A stretch of DNA of 64,000 bases from Odoribacter splanchnicus DSM 20712. Lineage in GTDB: Bacteria > Bacteroidota > Bacteroidia > Bacteroidales > Marinifilaceae. Position 1 is the stretch's first letter; each line of letters begins with the position of its first letter. Below the pieces are notes generated by a model. It had not been told where the DNA came from, made no database searches, and saw only the letters and a list, made by a program, of their open reading frames with translations. Below, piece after piece: positions 6,289 through 47,561 of the stretch. The stretch covers positions 2,480,001-2,544,000 of the forward strand of contig NC_015160.1 of the NCBI RefSeq assembly GCF_000190535.1, given 5' to 3'. Both the position numbers and the translations under genes were made by a program.

Positions 6289-6387
6289 TTAATTTCCTTT
6301 AATAAAAAAGAGAAAAATCACCATCAATAATGAAAAGATATAGCGTGTATATCTTACCATTCTTTGAAGATTCACAATAGAAGTGCA

Positions 6388-6415
6388 ATTCTCCGTCGGC
6401 ATGCCGACGGAGAAT
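6388..6415. repeat. Perfect 28-bp palindrome abutting the IS30 left end
   Basis: Bases 6388-6415 are a perfect palindrome centred between 6401 and 6402 (inner part CCGTCGGCATGCCGACGG). Its right edge touches the left inverted repeat of the IS. IS30-family transposases often choose palindromic targets. It could equally be a stem-loop that ends galM-side transcripts or an operator of the gal divergon. Confidence 0.75.
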
Positions 6416-31436: not shown

Positions 31437-31496
31437 CAAAACTATACATAAGCAATCAAACGGACAATGGCCAATGTTCTCAAATTGTTCTCAAAA
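31437..31496 (-). promoter_or_regulatory. 11-bp tandem-repeat regulatory site plus promoter, copy a
   Basis: Read on the minus strand: TTTTGAGAACA and ATTTGAGAACA (plus 31496-31475), 6 nt, ATTG (31468-31465), 20 nt, TAGTTTTG (31444-31437). The ATG of the DUF4870-like gene lies 41 nt further on. A second, weaker pair in the opposite orientation (around plus 31512-31530) is visible. Repeats of one helical turn next to the -33 position are typical of OmpR-family activator sites. Confidence 0.65.
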
Positions 31497-31560
31497 TTTC
31501 CCGGTCCATTATGAACATTTTAAGAATGTCGGCATCCACAAATGGTACAAGATTTGACGG

Positions 31561-33303
31561 TCATGGTTTTCGCAAATACTCTTCCATTTCGCGTTTCATC
31601 CGGTCCACCCGGAACGACGGCACTTTCACCGGCTTTACGATAATCTCTCCGGCCAACTGCCGGGCTTCGGCTTCACGCCCGGTTTGCCGGTATAGCTTCA
31701 CCAAACGGTAAAGCGGCATAAAACGATTGGGACACATCCGGGCTGCCCGGCGGTAATGCCGTTCCGCCCGGTCGTATTCACCCAAACGGCTATAATTATC
31801 GGCCAGCAACATCTGTACATCCATATCGTTCAGGCCCCGGACACATTCTGTCAATATACTCAGGCTTGCCGTCCACAATCCCGCCACATGCAGCTCCGCC
31901 CCGTAATTGTAAAGGAATAAGGGATTTTCGCGCATAAAAGGATATAAACGGGCATAATCGGTCAACACCTCCTCCGTCCGGCCGTTTAAAGACAAACAGG
32001 AAATGCGGTGCCATTCACGTTCCGCCCGGTTCCAATATAAAGTAACCGCCAACACCGCTACGGCCAAAGCCCCTATTCCGGTTTTAAACCACCGGCCTCC
32101 ATAAAAGCAAACGGGACGTCCACGCACAATCACCCCCAGCAGCAACACCAAAAGTACGCATACCGCCGGATAATTCAGCGGATAGGAAAACAAACCGCAA
32201 ATCCCCGCCCCTCCGATACTCCGGTACAACGGACGGTCCTCCGGACGGCAACGACGATACCATCGCCACAACAGCCATATCACCCCGGCAACCAGTAGCA
32301 GTCCCGCCACTCCGTATTCGGCAGCAATCCGCAGATACTCATTAAAAGGATGCCTGACATTACCGGCCAACCGTTCCCATTTTTCCTCCGGATGCTCCGC
32401 CAGCCAGCCGGCCTGATAATCCATATATTCTGCCTGAAAAGCATCCGGTCCATGTCCCGTCAGGGGAGCATCGGCCAGCATCTCCAACGAACAATTCCAT
32501 ACCAACAGACGACCGTCCGCCGAATCTTTCTTCCAGCAATACAGGCCGACGAGCATTACCGCCCCCACTGAAACAAACGCCGCCCTTACCCTCCAAGCCG
32601 GCCAGCGACCGCCCAAAAAGAAACGGTAAACAGAAGTCGCAGCCAGACATCCCACTGCCACCATCCCGGTGCGCGAACCCGATAAAACCACCGCAGCCCC
32701 CATCGATAATGCCGATAATCCGCCCCACACTTTCGCACCGACAGGACGTGAAGCCATAAAATAAAGCGCCGCCGGGAAACAGATTGCCAGACAAGCCGCC
32801 AGTCCTGCCGGATTGTCGAATGTCCCCGTCACCGGGAAAGAAGCACTATACACCGGCCATATCCCGGCATATTGCCCGATTCCGGCAAACGCTTCCACCG
32901 CGCCCACGAACGACAATCCCCCATACCAGTCGGCCGGTTTCCCCCAGGCGGAAAAATATCCCGTCATCACGAATAAAAGCCACATAGCCCCTCCCCACGC
33001 CGCAGTCTGCCACGCAAAAAAGCCACCGGCCGACTTTCCGCCCACCACCGCCAGTATCCCGACAGCCACACACGCCAGTCCCGGTAAACCGACACGTCCG
33101 GACACCACGAACGGAAACAACATCCCCGACACGCCCACCGCAATCCCTGTCCAAAGCATTCCCGGCGTAAAAAAACGGTCGGCATACCCCTCCGGAAAAT
33201 AAAATACATTTCCCAGAACGATCAACAGGAAAAACCGGAAAAAGATTCTTCTCCGGCCCTCTGCCGTTCTTATGGCCCTCTTTATTTCTTTTCCGAAATT
33301 CAT
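31561..33303 (-). CDS. O-antigen ligase-like (Wzy_C) membrane protein with TPR tail
   Basis: This 580-residue protein has about ten to twelve membrane helices in residues 20-420. A large loop around 265-315 (LLVWNCSLEMLADAPLTGHG, then HPFNEYLRIAAEYG) matches the O-antigen ligase/polymerase family signature. The last 150 residues are TPR-like (LNDMDVQMLLADNYSRLGEYDRAERHY). Such proteins polymerise or ligate surface glycans, or O-glycosylate proteins, using lipid-linked sugars. No glycan cluster lies nearby, so the substrate is open. G+C is high compared with the lipoprotein genes next to it. Confidence 0.8.
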   Translation of the reverse strand: MNFGKEIKRAIRTAEGRRRIFFRFFLLIVLGNVFYFPEGYADRFFTPGMLWTGIAVGVSGMLFPFVVSGRVGLPGLACVAVGILAVVGGKSAGGFFAWQTAAWGGAMWLLFVMTGYFSAWGKPADWYGGLSFVGAVEAFAGIGQYAGIWPVYSASFPVTGTFDNPAGLAACLAICFPAALYFMASRPVGAKVWGGLSALSMGAAVVLSGSRTGMVAVGCLAATSVYRFFLGGRWPAWRVRAAFVSVGAVMLVGLYCWKKDSADGRLLVWNCSLEMLADAPLTGHGPDAFQAEYMDYQAGWLAEHPEEKWERLAGNVRHPFNEYLRIAAEYGVAGLLLVAGVIWLLWRWYRRCRPEDRPLYRSIGGAGICGLFSYPLNYPAVCVLLVLLLGVIVRGRPVCFYGGRWFKTGIGALAVAVLAVTLYWNRAEREWHRISCLSLNGRTEEVLTDYARLYPFMRENPLFLYNYGAELHVAGLWTASLSILTECVRGLNDMDVQMLLADNYSRLGEYDRAERHYRRAARMCPNRFMPLYRLVKLYRQTGREAEARQLAGEIIVKPVKVPSFRVDRMKREMEEYLRKP

Positions 33304-33340
33304 CCGTATCTTTCAAAAAATCCGTCCGTATCTTTTCCTG

Positions 33341-33358
33341 AAAACAAGCGCTTGTTTT
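33341..33358. repeat. 18-bp perfect palindrome
   Basis: AAAACAAGCGCTTGTTTT is a perfect palindrome without a loop, 38 bp upstream of the O-antigen-ligase-like gene. Two direct copies of CCGTATCTTT lie beside it (about 33304 and 33326). It may be an operator for a dimeric regulator; a terminator is less likely. Confidence 0.45.
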
Positions 33359-33440
33359 TTCAATTTCGTACTACCAAACCGAAATTTCTTCCGTATATTT
33401 TCACCGAAACATACGGGAGAAAATCCGAAAACAACCGGCC

Positions 33441-33821
33441 CTATTCTGGTAAAGATATGTTCAATTGCGATTTTATCGCTTTCATCAATTGCCGGGAAGG
33501 ATAGAAACGAAGCCGTACCCCCCGCAGGGACTCAGGACGGAAATCGGCAGGATCGTCAAAACCCTCGCTCGAAAATTCCAGGAGCAAACTGCCGATTTCC
33601 GGCAATTCCACCGAACAACCGGCCGCCAGCCAGTTGGCAGCCACTTCTCCGGCATTCGCAAACGCATCCACAATGTCTCCAGCCGAGAGAACCGACCGGC
33701 CGGCGATCTGCCGGATCATCTCCCCGGCATCCCGCCGACCGGCAAAAACCGGCGCAGCATAATATTTCGGTGGCAACAAACGGTTCTGCGGATTATGCCG
33801 CAACACCCACCTGATTTTCAT
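33441..33821 (-). CDS. HU-family DNA-binding protein (HU-HIG type), second of a pair
   Basis: I chose ATG 33821 (MKIRWVLRHNPQN), giving 126 residues; an upstream ATG at 33836 adds five. The N-terminal extension R-NP-NRLLPPKYYAAPV is typical of Bacteroidota HU-like 'HIG' proteins, followed by the HU helical dimer region (AGEMIRQIAGRSVLSAGDIVDAF) and the strand LPEIGSLLLEF. The family binds DNA or, in some members, has structural roles. It is adjacent to a paralogue; their joint role is unknown. Confidence 0.8.
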   Translation of the reverse strand: MKIRWVLRHNPQNRLLPPKYYAAPVFAGRRDAGEMIRQIAGRSVLSAGDIVDAFANAGEVAANWLAAGCSVELPEIGSLLLEFSSEGFDDPADFRPESLRGVRLRFYPSRQLMKAIKSQLNISLPE

Positions 33822-33847
33822 AGCAGTACCTGCCATCTTCCCCTCAA

Positions 33848-34273
33848 TCAATCAGACTCCCCGGGAGTATCCGAAGACGACGAAAGCGCCGGTCTGTTGA
33901 TCACTTCGAAAGTAATCTCCGATTTCACCCGCTCCTTCATCTTTGCACTCGGCGTAAAAACAATTTTTACACCACGAATCAAAGAAGACGAGAAATCCTC
34001 TGCCCGGTCCACCCCCTCGCTGCCGAAGGAGATCCGCAATATGCCGAAATCTTCCAACTGCACCGAGCGGTTCATCAGCATATAAGTAGGCAACTCGTCC
34101 AGAAAGTTAGTCAACACATTTTTTACATCCCCGGCCGTAAGCGACGAACGCCCCGCAATCTGACGACAGATCATATCCATCCCGACCACTCCGTCGAGCA
34201 CCGGCTGACCGTAGAATTTACCCGGTTCATCGGGTTTCTGCGGATTTTTCCGTTGAACGATTTTTACTTTCAT
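33848..34273 (-). CDS. HU-family DNA-binding protein (HU-HIG type), first of a pair
   Basis: Start at ATG 34273 (MKVKIVQRKNPQKPDEPGKF), 141 residues. The N-terminal R-KNPQKP motif, the helical core (MDMICRQIAGRSSLTAGDVKNV) and VQLEDFGILRIS match the HU-HIG group. The C-terminus has a serine-rich acidic tail (SSSSDTPGESD). About 35-40% similar by eye to the next gene, so a tandem duplication. It follows a lipoprotein gene by 46 bp, likely in the same transcript. Confidence 0.83.
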   Translation of the reverse strand: MKVKIVQRKNPQKPDEPGKFYGQPVLDGVVGMDMICRQIAGRSSLTAGDVKNVLTNFLDELPTYMLMNRSVQLEDFGILRISFGSEGVDRAEDFSSSLIRGVKIVFTPSAKMKERVKSEITFEVINRPALSSSSDTPGESD

Positions 34274-34319
34274 AGATTCACTTTTTAAAGGTTTATTAAA
34301 AATCCCGCACAGGCAGATA

Positions 34320-35072
34320 CTACTGATTACCCTGTAAAACCTCCCCAACAGACCCGGCAATAGCTCCCTGGAGATAATATTTTTCCCCTCGTTGAACCGC
34401 ACTCATACCATCGCTCCAAACAACGGTTTTATAGTTTTCCCACCATTCCTTCGATACAGGCGTTTCTTCCCCCCTTGTCCGCATACGATTCAAAGGCAAC
34501 TTACCCACCCCGAACAATTCCGTCATCCAACGTTCATAGTTTTCCGCCCAATAGACCGCGGAATAACGGCATACGGCCATGGCATAGCGCACGATCTCCC
34601 GTTCGGAAACAGCGAGACGATCATCCAGCTCCACCTGTTGTTCCAGCCGTCCGACAGCTATGGCAAAATCTTCTGTCCGCTCAGGTGTCACCCGTCGCAC
34701 CTCCGATTTCAAACGACCGACCCATTCCTGCTGCGCAACGGAGAGAAAAGAAAAATCATCGGACACTTCACTGCCGGCCCTTGTCCGGGCCGGACAGACA
34801 TATCCGCACATACGGGCAAAATCGTCGCACATATCCCGGATTTCTTCTGCCGGCGGAAGTTTCCGTGCCCCGCTGCGGGTAAACGGAGCCTCCTCCGAAA
34901 TCCGCTCCAAAACATAATCCAATCCTTCATTATGCAACCGCCCCATACGGTCGTATACCGATTCTTCCGTAACCTTCCCGGCCGGCACACTTTCATCCGA
35001 ACAGGCACAACATCCCAAAACAAACAAAATACCGAGGACCATCCGTCCGTTTTTCAAAAAAGTCGTATTCAT
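34320..35072 (-). CDS. Lipoprotein of unknown function
   Basis: I chose ATG 35072 (MNTTFLKNGRMVLG), giving 250 residues; a later ATG (MVLGILF) is possible. The lipobox is GCCACSD. The mature part is helical, with arginine-containing junctions (FTRSGARK, CPARTRAG, MRTRGEE). No family recognised. Its upstream region carries the 11-bp tandem repeats shared with two other loci, and the divergent neighbour is the histidine kinase gene, so it is a candidate target of that system. Confidence 0.7.
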   Translation of the reverse strand: MNTTFLKNGRMVLGILFVLGCCACSDESVPAGKVTEESVYDRMGRLHNEGLDYVLERISEEAPFTRSGARKLPPAEEIRDMCDDFARMCGYVCPARTRAGSEVSDDFSFLSVAQQEWVGRLKSEVRRVTPERTEDFAIAVGRLEQQVELDDRLAVSEREIVRYAMAVCRYSAVYWAENYERWMTELFGVGKLPLNRMRTRGEETPVSKEWWENYKTVVWSDGMSAVQRGEKYYLQGAIAGSVGEVLQGNQ

Positions 35073-35107
35073 TCCGATATCTAATCTTAGCACTTGAAAA
35101 TTTGGGA

Positions 35108-35167
35108 TAAGTTTATGATATTTTTCCGGTCCGCCCAATAGCCAATGTTCTCAAATTGTTCTTAAAA
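35108..35167 (-). promoter_or_regulatory. 11-bp tandem-repeat regulatory site plus promoter, copy b
   Basis: Read on the minus strand: TTTTAAGAACA and ATTTGAGAACA (plus 35167-35146), 6 nt, ATTG (35139-35136), 20 nt, TAAACTTA (35115-35108). The stretch of about 32 bp from the repeats to ATTG differs from copy a at only two positions. It lies between the divergent lipoprotein and histidine kinase genes. Confidence 0.6.
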
Positions 35168-35230
35168 TTTTCCGTTTTTCCGGCATGAAAAAAATTGGAT
35201 ATTGTTTCAAAGTAATCTATTTTTAACCGA

Positions 35231-37396
35231 ATGAAAAAAAGCCACCTTTCCATATCCGGATATATCCACCTGATGATCATCCTATTATTGCTTCTGGAAG
35301 CAGGATGGTTGTATTCTCTTTACCATGCGGAAAGAAGAGATTTCCGATATGTTACGGGAAAATTTATAGAAGATGCCATAAAAGAAGAAATACATACCTG
35401 CCCCATACAAGAGACAAACGGACTTGACGATTTTAGTATGAAGGGGCGCCTGATCATGACATATACCTATAAAGGGAAATATTTTCACATAGATACGAAT
35501 AGCCAACTATTTCTTGTTTTTTACAGGCGTAAACTTTACGATTTCAATCGGGAAAGCTGGAATATCGACAGCCTTGCCGCCTGGTTCCGGCATTTCTGCC
35601 CTTGGGAGGACCTGAACCCCGTTTTTATCCGGCAGGATACAACGGGAAAAATCATCGACCGTTATCCGGCGGACTGCCGGAAACCGTATCGGCAACCGGA
35701 CTTCGCGCAATTCCAATTAGGCAATCTCGAACCCGATACACTCACGGCCTGGTTCGATTTTCCCTTCAACCGCTTTTGGCTGCGACAACGTTACGGTCTG
35801 TTGCTTTCCATTGTCCCGTTTCTATTTGCCCTGTCTTTCGGCCTACTTATTCTCCGGCGGGAAAAGAGACGGCAACGCAATCACCTCCTGACGGAAAAAC
35901 AACTTATTTTTATTCACGACCTGAAAACCCCGTTTTGTACCAGCTGCCATATCGAACAACACCTGCTGCAACATGTCGGCGAATGGCCGGCAGAAAAAAT
36001 ACACGAAAAACTGAATGTATGCCGTCACCTGCTTGTAGCCATCACCGACGAAATGACGCAACTTATCGACCGCTCGGCCGGCTACTGGGGGACGAACCCA
36101 GAAACGGCCGGATTCGATCTCCGGAGCATGCTCGAAGAAGTGGCCGCCCGCTACGGAGGCAGGGGCGATGCCTCGCGTATCGCTGTCGACTACCGGCTCG
36201 ACACGCCGATCGTGCAGGGCGATTCCTTTCACTTATCGCACATTATCGGCAACCTGATCGATAATGCCCTCCGCCATGCCGGACCCGAAGCTACCATCAC
36301 CGTCATCTGTGATGCCGACCGCCGGGGACGACTGCGCCTCACGGTCGAGGACAACGGCACTGGTATTCCCCGCCGCCTGCACCGCCGGATTTTCCGTCCC
36401 GGCTTCCGTTCCGTTCCGACAGGCGACAACCACGGGATAGGGCTGGCTTATATCCGGAATACCGCCCGCCGGATAGGAGCACGGCTCCGCCTCGACAGCC
36501 GGCCGGGACACGGCAGCCGTTTTATACTGACATTCACTCCCGGCCAAAAACACCGCCCCCGGAAGATTCACCTATCCCCCCGGTTCTACTCCTGTTTCAT
36601 CGTCGCCATAATGTTTGCCGCACTATTCTGGACAGGCAACCTATATATCGCCGACCGGAGAGCCTTCGTCAACGAAGAACTCCCGAACCTCGACGAAGCC
36701 ATCTTTAAAAACAATACGAGTTCTTTTAAATGGCGGGAAGACACCAACTGTTTCTGCAATGACTTCGAAGCCAAAACCATTACGGTGACACACAACGGTC
36801 AGGATACGACCTTGGCCATGGGCACTCATATCAACCAATCTCACATATACAGAGGTTTATATTATGATCTACGTGATACGGCCTGGCGTGTAGACAGTAT
36901 TCTCCCCGCTTACCGAAAGTATTCCGCCAACCGACTGCCGGTAATATTCCGGCGCATCGATGCTGCGGGCCGGACGATCGAGCGAGCCGGGACAGAGCAA
37001 CAGGCATTATTTCTCCCGGTAGAGTGTTCGCTACCGCTCGGTTATGTCGAAGGCCACCGGTTAGAAGTACAGCTTGCTTATCCCTGGCTGCGGTTGTTCA
37101 GCCGTTACGGATTCGGGCTCTTCCTGGCCTTAGCGGGACTGTCGGTGACTATCCGGTTGAACCGGATCGCCACGGACATGGCCCGGCGCCAGCAAGCTTT
37201 CATACGCTTCCAGCGCGAAGAGGTGCAGCTTTTTATCCGCAGCCTGCAACCCCGGCTCCGGGACATCCGGTATCCGCAAACCGCCGATCCGGAAATACTC
37301 GGCGCAACCCTCAGGAAGAATCTCGGCGTTTACAGGGAATTACTGGATCAAATCAATCTGCTGCTCGAAAAATTCAAAACGATCGAATGGGAATGA
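35231..37396 (+). CDS. Sensor histidine kinase with two homologous sensor modules
   Basis: 721 residues. Module 1: TM (about 12-30), periplasmic domain (31-185), TM (188-208). Kinase core: H-box IFIHDLKTP (His 229), N-box HIIGNLIDNALRHA (Asn 345), DNGTG (374-378), GHGIGLAY-like G2 and GHGSRF. Then a second module: TM (452-472), periplasmic domain (473-620), TM (625-645) and a cytoplasmic coiled helix with no second ATPase. The two periplasmic domains look homologous (e.g. YDFNRESWNIDSL vs YDLRDTAWRVDSI; an aromatic-rich motif before each final TM). It is followed 54 bp later by its response regulator. The signal sensed is unknown. Confidence 0.85.
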   Translation: MKKSHLSISGYIHLMIILLLLLEAGWLYSLYHAERRDFRYVTGKFIEDAIKEEIHTCPIQETNGLDDFSMKGRLIMTYTYKGKYFHIDTNSQLFLVFYRRKLYDFNRESWNIDSLAAWFRHFCPWEDLNPVFIRQDTTGKIIDRYPADCRKPYRQPDFAQFQLGNLEPDTLTAWFDFPFNRFWLRQRYGLLLSIVPFLFALSFGLLILRREKRRQRNHLLTEKQLIFIHDLKTPFCTSCHIEQHLLQHVGEWPAEKIHEKLNVCRHLLVAITDEMTQLIDRSAGYWGTNPETAGFDLRSMLEEVAARYGGRGDASRIAVDYRLDTPIVQGDSFHLSHIIGNLIDNALRHAGPEATITVICDADRRGRLRLTVEDNGTGIPRRLHRRIFRPGFRSVPTGDNHGIGLAYIRNTARRIGARLRLDSRPGHGSRFILTFTPGQKHRPRKIHLSPRFYSCFIVAIMFAALFWTGNLYIADRRAFVNEELPNLDEAIFKNNTSSFKWREDTNCFCNDFEAKTITVTHNGQDTTLAMGTHINQSHIYRGLYYDLRDTAWRVDSILPAYRKYSANRLPVIFRRIDAAGRTIERAGTEQQALFLPVECSLPLGYVEGHRLEVQLAYPWLRLFSRYGFGLFLALAGLSVTIRLNRIATDMARRQQAFIRFQREEVQLFIRSLQPRLRDIRYPQTADPEILGATLRKNLGVYRELLDQINLLLEKFKTIEWE

Positions 37397-37450
37397 AAAG
37401 TTGGTATATTCAATTAAAATTTCTAATTTCCCCTCGTCAAACTCATTACT

Positions 37451-38152
37451 ATGGACTGCAAACCGAAACTACTTTATGCCGAAGACAACCGCCTCACCGC
37501 AAAGGAAATGACCGAAATTCTGGAAGAAGAAGGTTATGAGGTGGTGACGACATACAGCGGCGACGAAGCCTGGGAGACTTTCGAACGTATTTCTCCCGAT
37601 CTGGTACTGCTGGACTTCCGGATGCCCGGACTCAACGGCTTGGAAGTATTCGAGCGTATCCGGCAGGTGGATGCGGAAATTCCGGTGCTCATTCTGAGTT
37701 CGTATAACGAATATTGTGTCCCGTCGCTGAAAAGCGGCACCGCCGACTTTATCCGCAAAGAAGCCGATATCGCAGAAATCTGTGCCCGCATCGCTGCCGT
37801 ATGGCAACGCCATGCCTCCGGCAAAACTAATGATTCCGCCGGAGAAACCGTCCTCCGGCTCTCGGAGCTCACCACATTCCGCACCGACAGTTTTACGCTG
37901 CGTATCGGTCCCAACATCATTCCCCTGACCGGCGCATTAGGAGAAGTGCTGGTACTCTTATGCCGTCCGCCCCGGCAATGCCGTGCAGCCACCGATATCT
38001 GCCGGCAACTCTGGCACAACGACAGCAAAAGCAAAATCACTTTACTACAAAACTATATCTCTCAATTGCGGAAACTGCTCACTGCCGACCCTGCCCTGCA
38101 CATCGTCAGCCTCTACAATAAAGGATATTATTTGCAAATCAACGGAGAATAA
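37451..38152 (+). CDS. OmpR-family response regulator
   Basis: 233 residues. The receiver domain (about 5-120) has LLYAEDN acids, the phosphoacceptor in VLLDFRMPG, Ser in LILSSYNE and Lys in FIRKEAD. The C-terminal winged helix (about 145-233: FTLRIGPNIIPLTGALGEVL, KITLLQNYISQLRKLL, IVSLYNKGYYL) is of the OmpR/PhoB transcription-activation type, which usually binds tandem direct repeats. It is the partner of the upstream kinase. The 11-bp repeats at 31475, 35146 and 47529 are candidate targets. Confidence 0.92.
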   Translation: MDCKPKLLYAEDNRLTAKEMTEILEEEGYEVVTTYSGDEAWETFERISPDLVLLDFRMPGLNGLEVFERIRQVDAEIPVLILSSYNEYCVPSLKSGTADFIRKEADIAEICARIAAVWQRHASGKTNDSAGETVLRLSELTTFRTDSFTLRIGPNIIPLTGALGEVLVLLCRPPRQCRAATDICRQLWHNDSKSKITLLQNYISQLRKLLTADPALHIVSLYNKGYYLQINGE

Positions 38153-38165
38153 CCCGCACTTTTCC

Positions 38166-39209
38166 TTATTGAATATACAGACTACCATTGGAAAGTTCCA
38201 GTAAAACCTCTCCGGTATATTTCGGATTGCCTACAAATTTCGAGCTGACGGTCATATTCCTTTCAGATGCAGACTTTTGTTCCAATTCCATTCCATCCGG
38301 CAACCCCATTTTCAACGATTTGTTATGCTTGATTTCCAAATGATAACCGGCATCTTTTTCAAAAGTCAGCCCGACTTTAGTAAAAGAACCTTTCAAACGG
38401 ATCTCGGAAAACAACAGTTGTATATTGCGTATATTCATTTCCCCCATTTTCATATCCATATCCACATAACTACCTAAATCCTGTACCTCATATTTGGTAA
38501 AAGACGAGCTACCGGTCAATTCTTCCACATCCCCGATTTTCATTGTCCCGCCGGAAGAGCGCAAGTTCAGCTTACCCATCGATTCCAACTCTCCGTCACA
38601 AGCATTGGTTTCTAACCGAACATCATCACCGGAAGCAATCCGAATGGTACAATTCCGAAACTCTCCTTTCATCAAAGCCACCTCTTCTACATTGAAAATT
38701 CCTTTCTCTTGCTTGATGTACAATTCTCCTCCGCTCAAAGCAGTCGCTTTAAAATCCCCGACACGAATATCCGCATTTACCTCACCTGAAAAATTAGTCA
38801 GGTATACATTGCCGTTTGTACTGATCAATCTCAACTTGATTCCTTTCGGAACAGATACTTTATAGTCGACATTTAATGTCGTGTTGGTCAGAAACTGCTT
38901 CAATCCCATGTCTTTCCCGAATTCGGTCTTAAAATTGAGATATTGCCCGGTAATCGTTTCTACTATCTGAATCAATTCGAGTGTTTCATCCGCTTTCACC
39001 CCCGATTTAGCAGTCACCTTCATAGCTACAGCTACTTTGATCTCATCTCCATCCACCTGAACAATTTCCATTTTTCCATATTGGTTGGACAACACCAACT
39101 CTTCGATTCCGGCTTTAGGATAAGTTTTTTCATATTTTTTCTCACTGGTTTCGGCTTTCGATTGAATTCCCGCAACCAACAGGCACAACACTGCAATCAG
39201 CACTTTCAT
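38166..39209 (-). CDS. Secreted DUF4097-like beta-strand repeat protein
   Basis: 347 residues with a signal peptide (about 1-19). The body is a series of short strands of the putative adhesin/DUF4097 type (LVLSNQYGKMEIVQVDGDEI, LISTNGNVYLTNFSG, LNLRSSGGTMKIGD), likely forming a parallel beta solenoid in the periplasm or at the cell surface. Function unknown; such proteins are often near sigma/anti-sigma or kinase genes. It converges with the response regulator gene and lies 12 bp after the DUF4924 gene. Confidence 0.8.
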   Translation of the reverse strand: MKVLIAVLCLLVAGIQSKAETSEKKYEKTYPKAGIEELVLSNQYGKMEIVQVDGDEIKVAVAMKVTAKSGVKADETLELIQIVETITGQYLNFKTEFGKDMGLKQFLTNTTLNVDYKVSVPKGIKLRLISTNGNVYLTNFSGEVNADIRVGDFKATALSGGELYIKQEKGIFNVEEVALMKGEFRNCTIRIASGDDVRLETNACDGELESMGKLNLRSSGGTMKIGDVEELTGSSSFTKYEVQDLGSYVDMDMKMGEMNIRNIQLLFSEIRLKGSFTKVGLTFEKDAGYHLEIKHNKSLKMGLPDGMELEQKSASERNMTVSSKFVGNPKYTGEVLLELSNGSLYIQ

Positions 39210-39220
39210 ATTCTATCAGA

Positions 39221-39772: not shown

Positions 39773-39798
39773 AATACGATCTGGTTTTAATTTATAGG

Positions 39799-40191: not shown

Positions 40192-40226
40192 TATTTCACT
40201 AATTAAGCCTTTCCGCCTTTAATTTT

Positions 40227-40796: not shown

Positions 40797-40806
40797 AATT
40801 TATCTG

Positions 40807-41379
40807 TTATTTTCCTTCCTGAGCAGCAGCACGGGCAGCACGAGTCAGTTTAATTTGTGCAACAACAACCTCTTTCGCATTTACAATCTCAAAGTTTTCA
40901 AAAGACAGGTCTTTCACTTTAATAGATTTTCCTAAGCCCAGATTCGTTACATCCAATACAATTTCTCCCGGCAGATTAGCAGGAATAGCTTTCACTTTCA
41001 ATTTTCTAACTACCAAAGAAAGTTTACCACCAGCCTGTACACCTTCAGCAAATCCCTGTAATTTAACAGGCACTTCCATTATCACTGGTTTATCTTCGGA
41101 GATCTGATAGAAATCCATGTGCAATACACGGTCGCTTACGGGATGGAACTGGATTTCACGCATAACAGCTTCGTAGCTCTGTCCTGCTACATTTACTTTT
41201 ACGATGTATACAACCGGAGTGTAAAGCAATTTTTGCAAATCTTTTTCAACCACTGAAAAATGTACATTTTCTTTACCACCATAAAGAACACAAGGTACTT
41301 TCCCTTCAGCTCTCAGCAGATTAGTCGCTTTTTTACCCAGATCAGTTCTCAATTCTCCCTGTAATTCAAACACTTGCAT
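40807..41379 (-). CDS. rplY: 50S ribosomal protein L25 / general stress protein Ctc (bL25)
   Basis: The 190-residue long-form bL25 has an N-terminal 5S-binding domain (ELRTDLGKKATNLLRAEGKVPCVLYGG) and a C-terminal TL5/CTC beta domain (EVPVKLQGFAEGVQAGG), ending in an Ala/Arg-rich tail. It is first of a likely rplY-pth-S4 unit. A -7 box (TATCTTTG on the minus strand, 41494-41487) places its promoter about 100 nt upstream. The intervening leader can pair GGGG (around 41439) with CCCC, possibly a leader structure. Confidence 0.95.
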   Translation of the reverse strand: MQVFELQGELRTDLGKKATNLLRAEGKVPCVLYGGKENVHFSVVEKDLQKLLYTPVVYIVKVNVAGQSYEAVMREIQFHPVSDRVLHMDFYQISEDKPVIMEVPVKLQGFAEGVQAGGKLSLVVRKLKVKAIPANLPGEIVLDVTNLGLGKSIKVKDLSFENFEIVNAKEVVVAQIKLTRAARAAAQEGK

Positions 41380-41486
41380 AATAAATCTTTTTTTGTGCTA
41401 CTCAGAAACAGATTTCAACTCCGGGGGTATAAGCCAGTCTGTCTCCCCATTACACGATTTCAATTATTCCCCGTAAAATCAGGGGG

Positions 41487-41494
41487 CAAAGATA
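41487..41494 (-). promoter_or_regulatory. Likely rplY promoter -7 box
   Basis: TATCTTTG on the minus strand matches TAnnTTTG; no clear -33 element. It gives a leader of about 100 nt with GC-rich pairings. Confidence 0.5.
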
Positions 41495-41578
41495 GGAAAT
41501 AAATTTAAATATGAGGTCTCTAACGGATTTGAAAATATAAAAAACAAATAAAAACTTTTTTCTTTCAAATAATGATTA

Positions 41579-41586
41579 TACTTTTG
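41579..41586 (+). promoter_or_regulatory. Likely ferredoxin promoter -7 box
   Basis: TACTTTTG matches TAnnTTTG, 31 bp before the ferredoxin ATG; the position 19 bp upstream reads TTTT. Confidence 0.6.
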
Positions 41587-41617
41587 CCCATTATTAATCA
41601 ATTAAACAAATAAAGAA

Positions 41618-41788
41618 ATGGCTTACGTAATATCTGATGACTGTATTTCATGCGGCACATGTGAAGGAGAATGCCCGGTAGGAGCAATTTCTATGGGTGC
41701 TGATCATTATGAAATTGACCCTAATGCATGTACAGATTGTGGTACTTGTGCTGGTGTTTGCCCGGTTGAAGCTATCAAACAGGCTTAA
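41618..41788 (+). CDS. 2[4Fe-4S] ferredoxin
   Basis: This 56-residue electron carrier has two complete CxxCxxCxxxCP motifs (CISCGTCEGECPVGAIS and CTDCGTCAGVCPVEAIK), as in clostridial ferredoxins. It would serve pyruvate:ferredoxin oxidoreductase and similar anaerobic enzymes in the cytoplasm. It stands alone between a promoter and a terminator, consistent with high expression. Confidence 0.96.
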   Translation: MAYVISDDCISCGTCEGECPVGAISMGADHYEIDPNACTDCGTCAGVCPVEAIKQA

Positions 41789-41808
41789 ATATTATAACAG
41801 CATGAAAA

Positions 41809-41838
41809 AATAAAGCGGGGCTTTTGCTCCGCTTTATT
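41809..41838. terminator. Terminator between ferredoxin and the cyclo-ligase gene
   Basis: A 10-bp stem AATAAAGCGG / CCGCTTTATT, extended inside by further pairs, has T-rich sequence on both outer sides. It serves the ferredoxin gene and possibly the convergent cyclo-ligase gene. Confidence 0.85.
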
Positions 41839-41848
41839 TATTATAGTC

Positions 41849-42382
41849 TTACCGACTACTGATCACCTGAGTCATCCTGACATCGTGCACTTCGGTCGGA
41901 ATCCGGTCTAACAACTGAAAATCAAAACAAATCCCTATTTTACAAGCCTTCGTCTGTGACAAAATCTTATCATAAAAGCCTTTCCCCCGGCCTAAACGAT
42001 TCAAAGTCCGGTCAAAAGCGACGCCCGGCACCAAAATGACATCGATTTTATTCAAATCGGTAAAAAGCCGGCCGACAGGCTCCGGAATAGCATACCCTTC
42101 TCCGGGACACAATTTTTCGCGGCCGTCGAAATAACGGATTTCCAATTCATCCCCCTTTACACAAGGTAATAAAATGGTCTTTTCTTCTGCCCATTTACAA
42201 ACAAAGTCATGCGTAAACACTTCGTCGTCCATCGACCAATAAGCCAACACTACCCGGGCCCGTTGAAATACCTCATTATGCTCCACCTGTTGCCAAACGG
42301 AAGCGGACATTCTTTTCTTATCCTCTAGCGTATACTGCTTTTTTATCTCCCGAATCTGTTTTCTAATCTCTTTTTTTTCCAT
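41849..42382 (-). CDS. 5-formyltetrahydrofolate cyclo-ligase
   Basis: 177 residues from ATG 42382 (a GTG one codon upstream is less likely). It converts 5-formyl-THF to 5,10-methenyl-THF with ATP. Motifs: N-terminal KKEIRKQIREIKKQ (phosphate contact), AYWSMDDEVFT, and the ATP loop region RLGRGKGFYDKIL near the C-terminus. Length typical. A small lipoprotein gene lies 23 bp upstream on the same strand. Confidence 0.92.
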   Translation of the reverse strand: MEKKEIRKQIREIKKQYTLEDKKRMSASVWQQVEHNEVFQRARVVLAYWSMDDEVFTHDFVCKWAEEKTILLPCVKGDELEIRYFDGREKLCPGEGYAIPEPVGRLFTDLNKIDVILVPGVAFDRTLNRLGRGKGFYDKILSQTKACKIGICFDFQLLDRIPTEVHDVRMTQVISSR

Positions 42383-42405
42383 CACCCTTTTTCTATTTTT
42401 ACTTT

Positions 42406-42573
42406 CTACCTTTCATACAGTGCACCCCAATCGGGTATCGCTGTATCTAAACGAAATAAATCTCCGATCTTCGTATCTTTCAATAAATTCCTAACTTCCG
42501 GAGCCGGATTTCTCTTACAGCCGGAAAACCAAAAACCAAGAATTATTAGAATTAAAAGAAACTTCAAGGCCAT
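42406..42573 (-). CDS. Very small lipoprotein
   Basis: A 55-residue ORF starts at ATG 42573 and stops at TAG 42408-42406. The N-terminus MALKFLLILIILGFWFSGCK is a clear type II signal with lipobox FSGC (Cys 19). The mature part has only 37 residues (starting KRNPAPEVRNLLKDTKIGDL) and ends WGALYER. It lies just upstream of the cyclo-ligase gene. Family unknown; it could be a shortened remnant, but the complete signal and codon use look real. Confidence 0.65.
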   Translation of the reverse strand: MALKFLLILIILGFWFSGCKRNPAPEVRNLLKDTKIGDLFRLDTAIPDWGALYER

Positions 42574-42713
42574 TTTTAATTATTTTGATACTAAAAATCG
42601 TAATTTTACGGCAAAGATAAACGAAAAGATAAAAAGGTAATACGATAGTTGCTTAAAGTCGGTAAGAATCTCTGAGACTCAGAACGACTTTTTAACCTGT
42701 AATACACTAAATT

Positions 42714-44282
42714 ATGATCATTGCTATACCACAATTAAATTATAAAGCCGGAGATATTCAAGGAAATAGCGAAAAAATCATTTCTGCGATCCAAAAGGCT
42801 CAAAATCAAAAAGCAGAACTGATCCTATTCCCGGAACTGGCTGTTTCCGGCGCATTGCCCCAGGATTTACTGGAGAGAGAGGAATTTGTAAATGCCTGTC
42901 GTATGGCCATAGAAAAAATCGCAGCCACATGTACTCACATTGCAGCTATTGTAGGAGCACCGAATTTGGATAGCGAAAATGGTATTATGTACAACTCAGC
43001 CTATTTTATTCAGCATGGGGAAGTGGTAGACGGTGTTCATAAAAACATCCTGAGTGATTATGATATTTTCAGTGAAAGCCGTTATTTTATCGCAGGAGAA
43101 GATAATACGCCGATCCGGTATAAAAATCAAAATATACGGATTTTATTCGACGAATACGAATCGGAATACATCGACAAAACAGATAGCTTTGTCATCTTTA
43201 TCGGTATGACTCCTTTTACTGTCGATAGTAGCCGGGAAAAGCGGAAAGTACTGGCCACTTTGGCTCAAAAATACAATAAAAACCTGATCGCTGTCAATCA
43301 TGTAGGAAGTTATACTTCTGTACTGTTCGACGGTAATTCAATGGTTTATAACTACAAAGGGAAGAAAGCTTGCCAATTGAACGAATTTGCAGAAGACTTT
43401 CAGCTTATCGATACCAATAAATTAGGTACCCCTACACTTCAATCACCTGTTTCTCAAGACCGGATCGCTCTGCTCCATAAAGCATTGGTCTTCGGTATCC
43501 GGGATTACTTCGAAAAGAACGGTTTTCAAAAAGCTATCTTAGGCTTATCGGGAGGTATCGATTCCGCCGTAGTCGCTGCTTTGGCTGCCGAAGCTTTAGG
43601 AGCACAAAATGTTATGGGACTTTTAATGCCTTCATGTTATTCCACCGAACATTCGGTTCAAGACGCATTAGCGCTGGCAGAAAATATCGGAATGCCCCAT
43701 GAAACCATTGCCATTAAAGCAATCTACGAACAATATCTGGAAGCCTTACATCCTTTATTTAAAGACCAGCCCTTCAATGTAGCAGAAGAAAATCTTCAGG
43801 CTCGTACCCGGGGAATGTTGGTTATGGCCATGTCTAACAAATACGGTTATATTCCCCTGAATACTTCCAATAAAAGTGAAGCAGCTGTCGGATACGGCAC
43901 GCTTTACGGCGATCTCTGCGGTTCACTGGGTACAATCGGAGACGTTTTTAAAACCGATATCTATGCGTTAGCCCGATATATCAACCGGAATCAGATCATC
44001 ATTCCGGAAAATACTATACAAAAAGCACCATCAGCCGAATTACGGCCGAATCAAAAAGATCAGGACTCTTTACCGGACTACAACGAATTGGACGGTATCT
44101 TAAAACTATACCTGGAGGAAAACCATTCACCGGAAATGATTATAAAGGCAGGTTACCCGAAAGCTACTGTCGAAAAAGTCATTCAAATGGTAAAACGAAA
44201 TGAATACAAACGAGCTCAATGTCCCCCGATCATCAAAATCTCTAAAAAAGCTTTCGGATACGGTAGAAAATATCCTTTTTAA
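42714..44282 (+). CDS. nadE: NAD+ synthetase with degenerate glutaminase domain
   Basis: 522 residues. The C-terminal ATP-pyrophosphatase domain is intact (GLSGGIDSAVVAALA; GMLVMAMSNKYGYIPLNTSNKSE; YGTLYGDLCG; KAPSAELRPNQKDQDSLPDY), so it should make NAD from deamido-NAD. The N-terminal nitrilase-like domain keeps the triad Glu (FPELAVSG, Glu 41) and Lys (VHKNILSDYDIF, Lys 110), but where family members have ICED the sequence reads LFDE, so the catalytic Cys appears replaced by Phe 145. The enzyme may depend on free ammonia. The next gene, a Crp/Fnr regulator, starts 3 bp after. Confidence 0.9.
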   Translation: MIIAIPQLNYKAGDIQGNSEKIISAIQKAQNQKAELILFPELAVSGALPQDLLEREEFVNACRMAIEKIAATCTHIAAIVGAPNLDSENGIMYNSAYFIQHGEVVDGVHKNILSDYDIFSESRYFIAGEDNTPIRYKNQNIRILFDEYESEYIDKTDSFVIFIGMTPFTVDSSREKRKVLATLAQKYNKNLIAVNHVGSYTSVLFDGNSMVYNYKGKKACQLNEFAEDFQLIDTNKLGTPTLQSPVSQDRIALLHKALVFGIRDYFEKNGFQKAILGLSGGIDSAVVAALAAEALGAQNVMGLLMPSCYSTEHSVQDALALAENIGMPHETIAIKAIYEQYLEALHPLFKDQPFNVAEENLQARTRGMLVMAMSNKYGYIPLNTSNKSEAAVGYGTLYGDLCGSLGTIGDVFKTDIYALARYINRNQIIIPENTIQKAPSAELRPNQKDQDSLPDYNELDGILKLYLEENHSPEMIIKAGYPKATVEKVIQMVKRNEYKRAQCPPIIKISKKAFGYGRKYPF

Positions 44283-44284
44283 TT

Positions 44285-45004
44285 ATGACCATCATCACTG
44301 ATAGCGATTTACACGACAGTTTATGCCAAATCTGTATCGAAAGTCCTCATTCCTTACTCTCAGAACTAGGGTATGCGGCAAAACAAAAAATTATCGAAAC
44401 AACAGTCTGCATTTCCTATAAAAAAGGAGACCTGATTTATCAGGAAGGAGACATGCCGACAGGCTTACATTGTCTTTTGACGGGGAAAGCTAAAATTTAT
44501 AAAGAGGGCATCGGAGGACGCCAACAAATTGTTCGTATGGCCAAGCCGATCGGTTTTATCGGTTACAGAGCTTTCTTCGCCGAAGAAATACACATTGCTT
44601 CGGCTGAAGCTCTTGAAGATTCTATCGTTTGCCGGATTAAAACCGAATTGATCTTAGACATCGTCCGAACGACACCCGACCTGGCCATGAGTATTATCCG
44701 CGCACTGGCAACCGACCTCGGTTTTTCGCATCGTCGTACAGTAACCCTCACCCAAAAACATATCCGGGGACGTCTGGCTGAAGCTTTGCTGGTATTAAAG
44801 GAAACTTATGGCTACGAAGCCGATGGCTGTACGTTAAAAATTTGTCTCACCCGGGAAGATCTGGCCAACTTGTCCAACATGACCACGGCTAATGCTATCC
44901 GTACCCTTTCTAATTTTGCCACAGAAGGTATTGTCGGACTGAACGGCAAAAAAATCAAAATCATAGATAAAGAAAAACTCGAACAAATCAATAATCAGGG
45001 GTAA
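44285..45004 (+). CDS. Crp/Fnr-family transcriptional regulator
   Basis: 239 residues. The N-terminal cyclic-nucleotide-binding-like barrel (about 30-140: YKKGDLIYQEGDMPTGLHCL, GKAKIYKEG) is followed by the dimer helix and a C-terminal HTH_CRP (LTREDLANLSNMTTANAIRTLSNFATEGIV). N-terminal cysteines (SLCQICIESP) recall the FNR Fe-S motif, but only two are seen there, so an Fe-S cluster is not assured. It is nearly contiguous with nadE. Confidence 0.9.
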   Translation: MTIITDSDLHDSLCQICIESPHSLLSELGYAAKQKIIETTVCISYKKGDLIYQEGDMPTGLHCLLTGKAKIYKEGIGGRQQIVRMAKPIGFIGYRAFFAEEIHIASAEALEDSIVCRIKTELILDIVRTTPDLAMSIIRALATDLGFSHRRTVTLTQKHIRGRLAEALLVLKETYGYEADGCTLKICLTREDLANLSNMTTANAIRTLSNFATEGIVGLNGKKIKIIDKEKLEQINNQG

Positions 45005-45073
45005 ACCCGATCATCTCTACTCTTTTATAACCGATAAAGCAGCAAAAAACCGGACTAGAATAAATAGCTCAAA

Positions 45074-45167
45074 GGAGATACCCTTCTGAGAATTTAAATC
45101 ATACAATGAGGTATCTCCGTCTTAAGATCCGCTCTCCTAAAGCTCATGAGCCATTTACAAAAATGGC
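45074..45167. other. Two stem-loops in the intergenic region after the Crp/Fnr gene
   Basis: GGAGATACC (45074-45082) pairs with GGTATCTCC (45110-45118), and GCCATTT pairs with AAATGGC around 45150-45167. The second could terminate the minus-strand unit ending at 45194. No gene is seen in 45005-45193. Confidence 0.4.
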
Positions 45168-45193
45168 CCATTTAATCAGCTTAGGCTTCTGCT

Positions 45194-45526
45194 TTAATCA
45201 AGCAATCCTTCTTCTTTCAGAATCTTTTCTAATTTCCGGAAATGTTTTAGTTTCCAATCCGGATCTTCTTCACGAGGATAATCCGGATCTATTATCGGTT
45301 GATTCGTTTCAGAAAGAGGCTCGGAAGCTTTATCAAATTCAGCCACTTCCACCTCAAATTCTATGTCTTCACGTAATTTCAGGAATACACTAGCATAAGC
45401 ATGTCCTGAGCCACCTGCCTCAAGCGTAAATTTATTCTGCATAATACAAGAAGACAAGGTAACACCTCCATCGGGTAAACCAACTTTATAAGTCTTCTCT
45501 CCGTATTTAACAACTAATCCCTTCAT
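45194..45526 (-). CDS. Small protein of unknown function, last of the lipoprotein locus
   Basis: 110 residues, no signal peptide. The N-terminal half is beta-like (MKGLVVKYGEKTYKVGLPDG); the C-terminal part is charged (DYPREEDPDWKLKHFRKLEK). It overlaps the upstream gene by 4 bp and resembles it in plan: MKG start, beta region, then a Pro-acidic stretch and a lysine-rich helix ending KEEGLLD versus LEEEGKL. Probably paralogues. No function recognised; cytoplasmic partners of the secreted proteins upstream are one possibility. Confidence 0.65.
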   Translation of the reverse strand: MKGLVVKYGEKTYKVGLPDGGVTLSSCIMQNKFTLEAGGSGHAYASVFLKLREDIEFEVEVAEFDKASEPLSETNQPIIDPDYPREEDPDWKLKHFRKLEKILKEEGLLD

Positions 45527-45831
45527 AGTTTCCCTTCCTCCTCTAATTTCTTTTTCAATTTATAATACTCTTTCTTCATTTCCTCTCTATCGGAAGGATA
45601 TCTCATATGCAATGGAGAAGCAATATCAATCTCTCTAACCCGCACTTTAATCTTATCTCCCAGAGACATCTTTTTATTCATCCATATAAGATGATTCGAT
45701 TTTGAATCCATTCCTCCGATGTGCATATCATCCCCATCAGCATACCCTACACTTATGATTAAAGTAACCAAACTATCTGTCATTGCAACAATAGGAGCTG
45801 CATCATTAATACATATCTCAAAACCTTTCAT
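45523..45831 (-). CDS. Small protein of unknown function, paralogue of the next gene
   Basis: 102 residues, no signal peptide. MKGFEICINDAAPIVAMTDS begins a beta-rich half; the C-terminal helix is rich in Lys/Glu (EEMKKEYYKLKKKLEEEG). The stop overlaps the start of the following gene by 4 bp, so they are translated together. It is 12 bp after the Cys-rich lipoprotein gene. Confidence 0.65.
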   Translation of the reverse strand: MKGFEICINDAAPIVAMTDSLVTLIISVGYADGDDMHIGGMDSKSNHLIWMNKKMSLGDKIKVRVREIDIASPLHMRYPSDREEMKKEYYKLKKKLEEEGKL

Positions 45832-45843
45832 AATAATCCAATT

Positions 45844-46731
45844 TTACACTGGCCGAGGACAATCCCAAACACCGTGCTGTACTCTGCAAAATTCTAAGCA
45901 CCTTGCACAACACATTGTATATCCCCATCCCCCACTATGTTCCTTAGACCAAGGCCCTTTTTTATCCATACAATCCCTATATTTTTCTGCACATTCTGCC
46001 CGAAACTGGTCCGTATCCGACACACAAAGTACAGACATAATCAATGCAACTCCACCCACCATTACCTCCGAAACAGATACAACTATTTCGCCCATTTCAG
46101 TAAGCGTTCCAACAACATAAGGAGCAACTGCTGAATAAATGCTCCTGCAAGTTCCCCAGAAATCATCACCTCCTGATTCACTCCTTGTTTTAACCCTTCT
46201 CATTCGGAATTTAGTCTGAGGAGTAATAAGCATTTGTCCTTGTTTTTCAAGATTCTGAATTTCTCCTATTCCATAATACAAGGCAGACGTAATATAAAGT
46301 AACCTCTCCTGCTCTATTTCAGGAACCTGTTTAAAAATATCTTTATTGATATTGGCCAATCTATTGCCAAAGTCCTCGTAAGAAGTTGTTTCATCACATT
46401 CCTTCAATATCCGACGAATAAATTCAATTTGAATATGGGTCAGGTTACGATACCCTTCTATAAAAAGAAGTGAATTACCAAACATTTGATTTTGTGACAC
46501 TTTTGTTTTTATCATCCCTGGACTAGCCTGGGCCCAATCCTGATAAAATTGCTTTTTAAATTCAGGTGTGTTTTTAGCATTAGAATAATCTACACCTCTC
46601 TCATTTAAATTTATTACAGTCTGATGAATCTCATTGGCAACAGCCTTTCCAAATTTTTCAATATGAAGAGGAAAGTTAAGCTTATCTTCCAGACTTGGCT
46701 TCAGGAAATCATCATTCGAACATCCCTGCAA
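45844..46731 (-). CDS. Cys-rich lipoprotein-like gene lacking a normal start
   Basis: From TTG 46731 the frame encodes 295 residues. Upstream in frame only nine codons (reading YFISVFVIL) separate the lipobox LQGC from the TAG that ends the preceding gene, and there is no ATG or GTG. The signal peptide therefore seems to have lost its N-terminus. A helical domain (about 10-175) is followed by RVKTRSESGGDD (Arg 183), a hydrophobic stretch (about 200-238) and a tail with nine cysteines after residue 190. It may be translated by coupling from the upstream gene or be a decaying gene. Function unknown. Confidence 0.6.
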   Translation of the reverse strand: MQGCSNDDFLKPSLEDKLNFPLHIEKFGKAVANEIHQTVINLNERGVDYSNAKNTPEFKKQFYQDWAQASPGMIKTKVSQNQMFGNSLLFIEGYRNLTHIQIEFIRRILKECDETTSYEDFGNRLANINKDIFKQVPEIEQERLLYITSALYYGIGEIQNLEKQGQMLITPQTKFRMRRVKTRSESGGDDFWGTCRSIYSAVAPYVVGTLTEMGEIVVSVSEVMVGGVALIMSVLCVSDTDQFRAECAEKYRDCMDKKGPWSKEHSGGWGYTMCCARCLEFCRVQHGVWDCPRPV

Positions 46732-46755
46732 GATAACAAAGACAGAGATAAAATA

Positions 46756-47406
46756 CTAAAACTCTAGTAAAGATTTTGCAGTAATTTGCGATGTAATAAT
46801 ATCATGCATCATCAATTCTCCAGCCAATTTCAAATAGATCGAATATGGATAATTCAGAGAATCTACCAGTTCAGAGAATCCTGAGGATAAATATACACCT
46901 TGATTCAAAATTTCTTTTTGTTCCAATAAATTATTTAAAAGGGGGATTAGTTCTTTTTTATTCCTATGAAAATAGTTGGGCCAATGAAAATCAGTAGGTC
47001 CCAAATTATTTATTGCTTCTTTTGAGTACAAAAAAGTTTCTCTTGTTGCCCCTGGAATTAAGTCAACCAAATCTCCCTCCGGAGAAAATACACAAGTCAA
47101 AGGAGTAGTAACAGGACATAACCATTTTATATACCACTCATTTACGAAAACATTAATATCAGCCATATTATAAATGGCCTGTTGCGTCAGAAATTTGTAG
47201 CGATTTTGTAATCGTGAATAATATTCCTGAGACAAATGTTGCGAAGAGTCTATTAAAACAATACAAAATGGAAGATACTTATCTCTTGCAATATCACATA
47301 TTTCTTTAAATATTATATTATGATATATGGATGTATTTTTCTTATCACATCCCCCTAAACATACAATAGCCATTATTATCAAAATAATTCTCATAATTTG
47401 AATCAT
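46756..47406 (-). CDS. Lipoprotein with thioredoxin-like fold lacking CxxC
   Basis: 216 residues. The signal ends in a lipobox (VCLGGC). The middle looks like a thioredoxin fold: a helix with DKYLPFCIVLIDSSQ and later TTPLTCVFSPEGDLVDLIPG, the cis-Pro strand region. No CxxC is present, so redox activity is doubtful. Two close ATGs exist (47406, 47394). It heads the minus-strand locus 47406-45194, with the 11-bp tandem repeats upstream. Confidence 0.65.
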   Translation of the reverse strand: MIQIMRIILIIMAIVCLGGCDKKNTSIYHNIIFKEICDIARDKYLPFCIVLIDSSQHLSQEYYSRLQNRYKFLTQQAIYNMADINVFVNEWYIKWLCPVTTPLTCVFSPEGDLVDLIPGATRETFLYSKEAINNLGPTDFHWPNYFHRNKKELIPLLNNLLEQKEILNQGVYLSSGFSELVDSLNYPYSIYLKLAGELMMHDIITSQITAKSLLEF

Positions 47407-47490
47407 AAAATGAATAACCTACCAGAAAATATAAATTTTATGGTATAACCACCATAAACCAGCCTTTCAACAAAGGCTTACTACTACCAT

Positions 47491-47561
47491 CAAAATAGTA
47501 TAAAAGATAACAAAACAACAATAGTGAATGTTCAGAAAATGTTCGGAAAATGTTCGGAAAA
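47491..47561 (-). promoter_or_regulatory. 11-bp tandem-repeat regulatory site plus promoter, copy c
   Basis: Read on the minus strand: TTTTCCGAACA, TTTTCCGAACA, TTTTCTGAACA (plus 47561-47529), 6 nt, ATTG (47522-47519), 20 nt, CTATTTTG (47498-47491). The repeat unit, the 6-nt gap, ATTG and the 20-nt distance match copies a and b. The thioredoxin-like lipoprotein gene starts 85 nt downstream. Confidence 0.65.

Follow-up and report, generated by a model that had tools for sequence, protein, structure and literature searches.

Results

A 64,000-nucleotide stretch of the Odoribacter splanchnicus DSM 20712 genome (contig NC_015160.1, positions 2,480,001 to 2,544,000), referred to here as the window, encodes a two-sensor histidine kinase, an OmpR/PhoB-family response regulator, and three upstream regions, sites a, b, and c, in which tandem 11-bp units lie at a fixed distance from a promoter-like sequence (Table 1). 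Read on the minus strand, the three sites share one layout: tandem 11-bp units, 6 nt (N6), the tetramer ATTG at -33, 20 nt (N20), and a -7 box. An earlier note on this DNA had placed such units, with this spacing, at three minus-strand positions, and all of them read as described; up to ATTG, the sequences of a and b disagree at 2 of 32 positions, the same count as the note's 2 in about 32. We consider it highly probable, judging from the sequence, that the tandem units are the operator of this response regulator, which would switch on operons a and b and probably also bind at operon c.

Domain searches confirmed the DUF4870 gene behind site a, the two HU-HIG genes behind site b, the HATPase domain of the kinase, and the Response_reg and Trans_reg_C domains of the regulator, all as previously assigned, while the "thioredoxin-like" label given to the first gene behind site c found no Pfam or NCBIfam match. 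The regulator scored 87.9 bits for the receiver domain PF00072 (cut-off, 30.2) and 34.3 bits for the winged helix PF00486 (cut-off, 26.2). Identity with PhoB was rejected (NF053854, 78.4 of 270 bits; another PhoB equivalog, 77.8 of 296.2 bits), as was identity with RprY, whose model NF051850 was the best-scoring NCBIfam regulator model at 108.4 of 370 bits. Since the regulator carries OmpR/PhoB-family domains and since PhoB and ArcA bind 11-bp direct units in at least two copies, we take the sites as its operators, and activation is the likeliest sign because the units sit just upstream of -33.

Table 1. Features of the window and of the paralogous locus. Positions refer to the window unless a contig (C1) of the same genome, G000, is given; aa, amino acids.
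Feature	Position	Strand	Remark
Site a	31437-31496	-	Upstream of DUF4870 gene; from sequence reading
Site a, unit 1	31486-31496	-	TTTTGAGAACA
Site a, unit 2	31475-31485	-	ATTTGAGAACA; then N6
Site a, -33 ATTG	31465-31468	-	Then N20
Site a, -7 box	31437-31444	-	TAGTTTTG; perfect match to TAnnTTTG
Site a, degenerate third distal unit	31497-31507	-	GGACCGGGAAA; G[AG]A[AC]A, exactly in register with the 11-bp units
a2, inverted operator-like pair	31508-31528	+	ATTATGAACATTTTAAGAATG; orientation opposite to site a
Site b	35108-35167	-	Upstream of lipoprotein and two HU-HIG genes; divergent from kinase gene
Site b, units	35157-35167 and 35146-35156	-	
Site b, -33 ATTG	35136-35139	-	
Site b, -7 box	35108-35115	-	TAAACTTA; 2/6 mismatches
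Site c	47491-47561	-	Three units; upstream of lipoprotein operon
Site c, units	47551-47561, 47540-47550, 47529-47539	-	
Site c, -33 ATTG	47519-47522	-	
Site c, -7 box	47491-47498	-	CTATTTTG; 2/6 mismatches
Site d	G000 C1:2847587-2847644		Paralogous kinase locus
Site e	G000 C1:2837833-2837890		Paralogous kinase locus
Two-sensor histidine kinase	35231-37396	+	721 aa; HATPase domain
OmpR/PhoB-family response regulator	37451-38152	+	Response_reg and Trans_reg_C
Promoter-like sequence before kinase gene	35194-35225	+	ATTG-N20-TATTTTTA; almost no leader if used
DUF4870 protein	31016-31396	-	First gene behind a; Pfam
Lipoprotein-like cargo, 342 aa	29898-30926	-	Homologue: 208-aa protein of paralogous locus, 32% over 169 columns
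Exported protein, 214 aa	28445-29089	-	Orthologue in G005; first gene behind f2 (G006) encodes a 31% identical protein
Lipoprotein, ~650 aa	26459-28402	-	Paralogue at paralogous locus, 29%; G006 relative, 26% over 575 columns
Lipoprotein, 284 aa	25295-26149	-	KTRSE linker, Cys-rich C-terminus
Lipoprotein b, 249 aa	34320-35069	-	First gene behind b; close relatives adjoin kinase in G005 and G006 too
HU-HIG protein 1	33848-34402	-	PF18291; listed open reading frame, true start probably internal
HU-HIG protein 2	33441-33851	-	PF18291
Lipoprotein, 216 aa	46756-47406	-	First gene behind c; no family match
295-aa protein	45844-46731	-	KTRSE linker, Cys-rich C-terminus
Two small proteins	45194-45831	-	Similar to small proteins behind d (paralogous locus)

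A genome-wide scan had been set in advance as the test that could refute this idea, and the idea survived it: the strict pattern does not occur at random frequency. Within the window, the pattern TTTNNGAACANTTTNNGAACA gave 4 matches at up to two mismatches, all of them exact and at three places, against a shuffle mean of 0.09. Across the 4,392,288 bases of the genome holding the window (G000), its exact matches fall at these three places only, and up to two mismatches yield 17 matches (13 of them with two mismatches) versus 3 in a reversed control. The pattern GAACANTTNNNGAACAN6ATTG has three exact matches genome-wide, namely a, b, and c, and the next best three carry 2 mismatches; at up to three mismatches, specificity is lost (94 matches versus 31 in the control).

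Sites of the same geometry recur outside the window, and eleven of them were aligned. Alongside an orthologous kinase/regulator pair, a sister species (G005) has two exact sites and a third with one mismatch (the set a', b', and c'); a distant relative (G006) has three sites with another operator sequence and identical geometry (f1, f2, and f3); and a paralogous kinase/regulator locus in G000 carries two more (d and e). Two 11-mers, N6, a tetramer, N20, and TAnnTTTG are constant in all 11 sites. The -33 tetramer is a TTTG-like element, reading ATTG in 8 of the 11 and TTTG (f1), CTTG (f3), and CTGG (d) in one each. When spacings from N15 to N25 were compared, TAnnTTTG fitted best at N20 in every site, uniquely in 10, with c tying with N18 and N21. 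At N20, the box agrees with a sigma-A -7 element, with at most 1 of 6 positions mismatched in 8 of 11 sites and two in b, b', and c; among 34,012 upstream 8-mers, the corresponding background frequencies are 0.0096 for up to one mismatch and 0.054 for up to two. Exactly one repeat further upstream, 8/11 sites have an additional unit, G[AG]A[AC]A (that of c is a full unit), compared to a background of 0.008. The N20 spacing fits the published element positions, with TTTG near -33 and TAnnTTTG at -7 among the deduced sigma-A elements of B. fragilis (PMC7366714, in excerpt) and a -7 box at positions -12 to -5 in Flavobacterium (PMC9723704, in excerpt).

Searches with lineage-specific patterns gave concordant pictures. 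The G006 operator pattern, at up to three mismatches, has 3 matches in G006 (0, 0, and 3 mismatches) and 0 in the control, and 0 matches in G001, G004, and G007. One of the three, f3, is unlinked to the kinase locus; its -7 box at N20, an element outside the search pattern, has a single mismatch. The d/e pattern recovers d and e (0 mismatches) and c (2 mismatches) in G000, with 0 in the control, and has 0 matches in G005 and G007. Weight matrices were built from the units, tetramer, and -7 box, omitting N6 and N20, and were scored against 797,640 background positions (400 kb of G000, both strands). The matrix from f1 to f3 ranked all six sites tested (a, b, c, d, e, and c') above every background position, and the matrix from the six G000/G005 sites did the same for all five tested (d, e, and f1 to f3); a' and b' were absent from the tests of the f-trained and d/e-trained matrices. 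A pattern for the whole architecture matched 31 of the 56 family genomes at up to three mismatches. At up to one mismatch, it had 6 matches in these genomes, all in G000 or G005; two mismatches added site c and one match in G033, and all remaining matches had three. Sites d, e, and f2 are among the three-mismatch matches of this pattern and of GAACANTTNNNGAACAN6ATTG. Control matches at three mismatches occurred in many genomes and in neither G000 (6 matches) nor G005 (3 matches). These counts are not independent because the pattern was loosened after d, e, and c' had been seen.

The agreement of a and b at 30/32 positions and the 95% identity of b to a' over 39 bp could also reflect recent duplication or mobility of a promoter fragment that has no role in regulation. 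Such a fragment would also suit the 66-bp block at site a (31462-31527), which is 98.5% identical in G005, isolated, and conserved as a block that includes most of a2. We regard this explanation as very improbable. Downstream of the block, the sequences of a and a' are unrelated, yet each has a -7 box at exactly N20, formed from different sequence, and diverged lineages lose sequence identity (16/28 between a and f2) but keep the geometry. The inverted pair a2 is also present in G005, with 1 difference, and no -33 tetramer was seen behind it.

The distribution of the kinase/regulator pair bears on which protein binds the sites. Among 8 genus genomes, the orthologous pair is found in G000 and G005 (kinase 82% and regulator 91% identical in G005), and G006 has a diverged pair (36% and 40%). 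In G001, the regulator is 41% identical and a contig end truncates the kinase; in the remaining four, the best regulator match is 30-33% identical. Among the matches listed for the 56 family genomes, the full two-sensor kinase occurs in G000 (twice), G005, and G006 and is cut in G001, while the other kinase matches cover the first part only. Lipoprotein b follows a similar course, with strong scores in G000, G005, and G006 only (3/56; any match, 9/56); in 393 order genomes, 14 have a match, strong in G000 and G006, with G005 not among the rows. Lack of conservation in relatives that keep the pair was the second refuting condition of the earlier note, and here too the idea survived: G005 and G006 keep both the pair and sites of identical geometry, G001 being the exception.

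Could the sites belong instead to another OmpR-family regulator or to the HU-HIG proteins, with the kinase nearby only by gene-cluster descent? This regulator does have 26 matches in G000, some of them confined to the receiver part, and HU-HIG proteins are encoded behind both b and b'. We nevertheless find this quite unlikely. In searches of 59 and of 56 genomes, exact sites are confined to G000 and G005, the 11-bp direct repeats adjoin the pair in three lineages, and the divergent region beside the kinase holds one site in all four full kinase loci (b, b', d, and f1), with the operator sequence shifting with the regulator. HU-HIG-like open reading frames (ORFs) were noticed only behind b and b', and none was seen by eye in the ORF lists of G006 and the paralogous locus, for which no full Pfam scan was made. 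Binding by the window's regulator is our preferred reading, and in G006 and the paralogous system, the geometry is unchanged and the operator sequence co-varies. One-mismatch matches outside G000 and G005 in the 59-genome search were C31:21637 of G006 and 13 others, in 12 genomes; the former lies inside an ORF (11350-12159 of L131; L-numbers denote stretches fetched from these genomes), has no double unit at up to three mismatches, and was set aside as probable chance.

Control of all three sites by the window's regulator, as the earlier note had it, is well supported for a and b and weaker for c, which fits the operator of the paralogue equally. It is possible, though we lean against it, that c (also d and e) answers to the paralogous regulator, leaving a and b alone under the window's regulator. 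Besides d and e themselves, c is all that the d/e pattern matches in G000, c and e have the same N6, e is the closest site to c over 28 nt (23 identities; the others, 20-21), and the small proteins of operon c have similar counterparts behind d. Over 22 nt, however, c shares 17 identities with each of a, b, d, and e, and it matches the a/b pattern exactly. Moreover, a frameshift interrupts the recognition helix in the paralogous regulator gene (L126 18910-19542 of G000:C1), making DNA binding unlikely in this genome, and the adjacent kinase gene is open. The lipoprotein gene behind e is frameshifted as well (L126, about 6200-6820). The paralogous system may thus be decaying in G000, in which case sites c, d, and e would fall to the window's regulator or to no regulator.

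The kinase itself is predicted to be ordered transmembrane (TM)-sensor-TM-DHp-CA, and after this comes a second, TM-sensor-TM-DHp-like module that lacks CA (predicted local distance difference test [pLDDT] score of the model, 73). Residues 221-440 of the model align to histidine-kinase and related ATPase cores in VIA-align, where the sensor parts are barely covered. At the phospho-acceptor position, module 1 has His (IHDLKTP), whereas module 2 of the window kinase, by eye, carries Arg. The same residue fills 19 of the 21 aligned rows, and the other 2 (P0004 and G006) have His, so module 2 is perhaps not always without a phospho-acceptor. A word-based search of a 5.8-billion-sequence protein collection returned 17 relatives of the second half. 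In the metagenome clusters P0002 and P0003, the HDLKTP motif varies after Lys (HDLKNP and HDLKPP), and in P0015, P0016, and P0017, paralogue-type kinase C-halves are fused to a TPR protein and are possible assembly chimeras.

Over residues 41-110, the G005-type kinase shares 24-27% identity with six other Odoribacter-type kinases, compared to 84-95% in the flanks (residues 1-40 and 111-180), indicating that the first sensor segment was replaced (L128 14888-17056 versus the window kinase gene; the identical G005 and P0005 kinases were counted once). The cargo varies too. Operon a (G000 and G005) and the f2 operon (G006) have in common a gene of 214-217 aa and one for a ~650-aa lipoprotein, and the cargo between these two genes differs; in G005, the DUF4870 gene lies ~1.46 kb further from the site, after 231-aa and 222-aa genes. 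We consider it unlikely, if worth stating, that the pair is a recognition system under diversification, in which related lineages swap, as cassettes, the sensor-1 segment of the kinase and the lipoproteins encoded downstream of an unchanging operator. If cassette exchange were true, each lineage would sense and display its own processed Cys-rich surface lipoproteins, like polymorphic pheromone or kin-recognition loci.

Pfam gave no above-cut-off match for the ten cargo and neighbor proteins searched, nor for the large lipoproteins of G006 and the paralogous locus, the latter with an F5/8 type C match below the threshold; the ~650-aa lipoprotein family has one PF01841 (transglutaminase core) match among 108 relatives. 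The predicted fold of lipoprotein b (pLDDT, 69) had no useful structure match (best E, 0.19), and the 295-aa protein matched the profile of the lipoprotein b family weakly (in a single comparison, probability 69 and E 4.6e-5). A T[RK][ST]E linker occurs in 4 of 9 hand-picked proteins of these loci versus 6 of 229 background ORFs, or 1 of 30 background ORFs with a lipobox-like start, and in three of the four it is followed by a Cys-rich tail. Lipoprotein-like proteins carrying a KTRSE or KTRTE linker ahead of a Cys-rich C-terminus are the 295-aa and 284-aa proteins of the window and the product of L128 9539-10207; these are possibly released surface peptides. Two further repeats were observed in the relatives: a ~11-bp tandem repeat of TTCCGGTTCAC-like units with another geometry, between lipoprotein b and f2 in G006 (L130 13731-13774), and a two-mismatch operator-like pair behind the ~650-aa lipoprotein gene of G005, with no clear downstream gene (L128 6357-6377, minus strand).

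Discussion

Together, these findings suggest a pathway in which the two-sensor kinase would sense an envelope signal and phosphorylate the regulator, which would then bind the units head to tail in the manner of PhoB or ArcA and recruit RNA polymerase at the adjoining sigma-A promoter. Operon a, with DUF4870, lipoproteins, and the ~650-aa transglutaminase-related lipoprotein, and operon b, with its lipoprotein and two HU-HIG proteins, would be turned on; operon c would probably be bound too, possibly shared with the paralogous system because c matches that system's operator as well as it matches a and b.

Several observations weigh against this proposal. G001 is the exception among relatives, as pattern searches found no site there despite its regulator and cut kinase. 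In G005, c' has no clear gene downstream. The matrix from a, b, and c placed 7 of 8 test sites above all background, with f1 beaten by 3 positions, and the matrix from d and e placed c and c' above all, with background positions beating a (2), b (10), f1 (2), f2 (1), and f3 (1). Nor are the matrix tests fully independent because several sites had been recognized by similarity beforehand and the b/b' and a/a' operator parts are orthologous. Finally, inspection found no tandem 11-bp units upstream of the kinase gene, where a promoter-like sequence was seen; the earlier suggestion that the regulator perhaps controls its own operon is for this reason unsupported. Site b, which lies on the opposite strand and farther upstream, might in principle serve both directions.

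The proposal gives a precise regulon of a two-sensor signaling system in gut Bacteroidales that is open to direct test. Since the geometry (units, 6 nt, -33, 20 nt, -7) is constant in three diverged lineages while the operator sequence is variable, the sites form a natural series for studying regulator/operator co-variation and the working of activators at sigma-A promoters, which are distinctive in this phylum. Replacement, of cargo as well as of a sensor segment, is where something unexpected is likeliest to emerge.

The kind of system is already known, and this particular system seems undescribed: our searches of open-licence PMC papers brought up no account of this two-sensor system, and an excerpt of PMC5903667 mentions only O. 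splanchnicus inversion sites. RprY of RprXY is the nearest NCBIfam regulator model, but the score of 108.4 bits is far under 370. In Bacteroidota, the response regulator PhoP of Riemerella anatipestifer has an ArcA-like motif whose most conserved letters are TTTAACA, and the excerpted account reports 583 genome-wide peaks, with motif and targets unlike those here (PMC9603813). ArcA of E. coli resembles the present case in its direct repeats with 11-bp centre spacing, two to five per site, but its box occurs in 158 of 176 ArcA-bound regions (PMC3798270, in excerpt), whereas three sites per genome were found here. The PHO box of E. coli and others is similar in its two 11-nt direct units, to which PhoB, an OmpR/PhoB-family regulator, binds head to tail (PMC4415409, in excerpt). 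The window regulator nevertheless falls far under the PhoB equivalog cut-offs, the sequence is unlike that of the PHO box, and the units here end 6 nt upstream of a -33 tetramer paired with a Bacteroidota -7 box.

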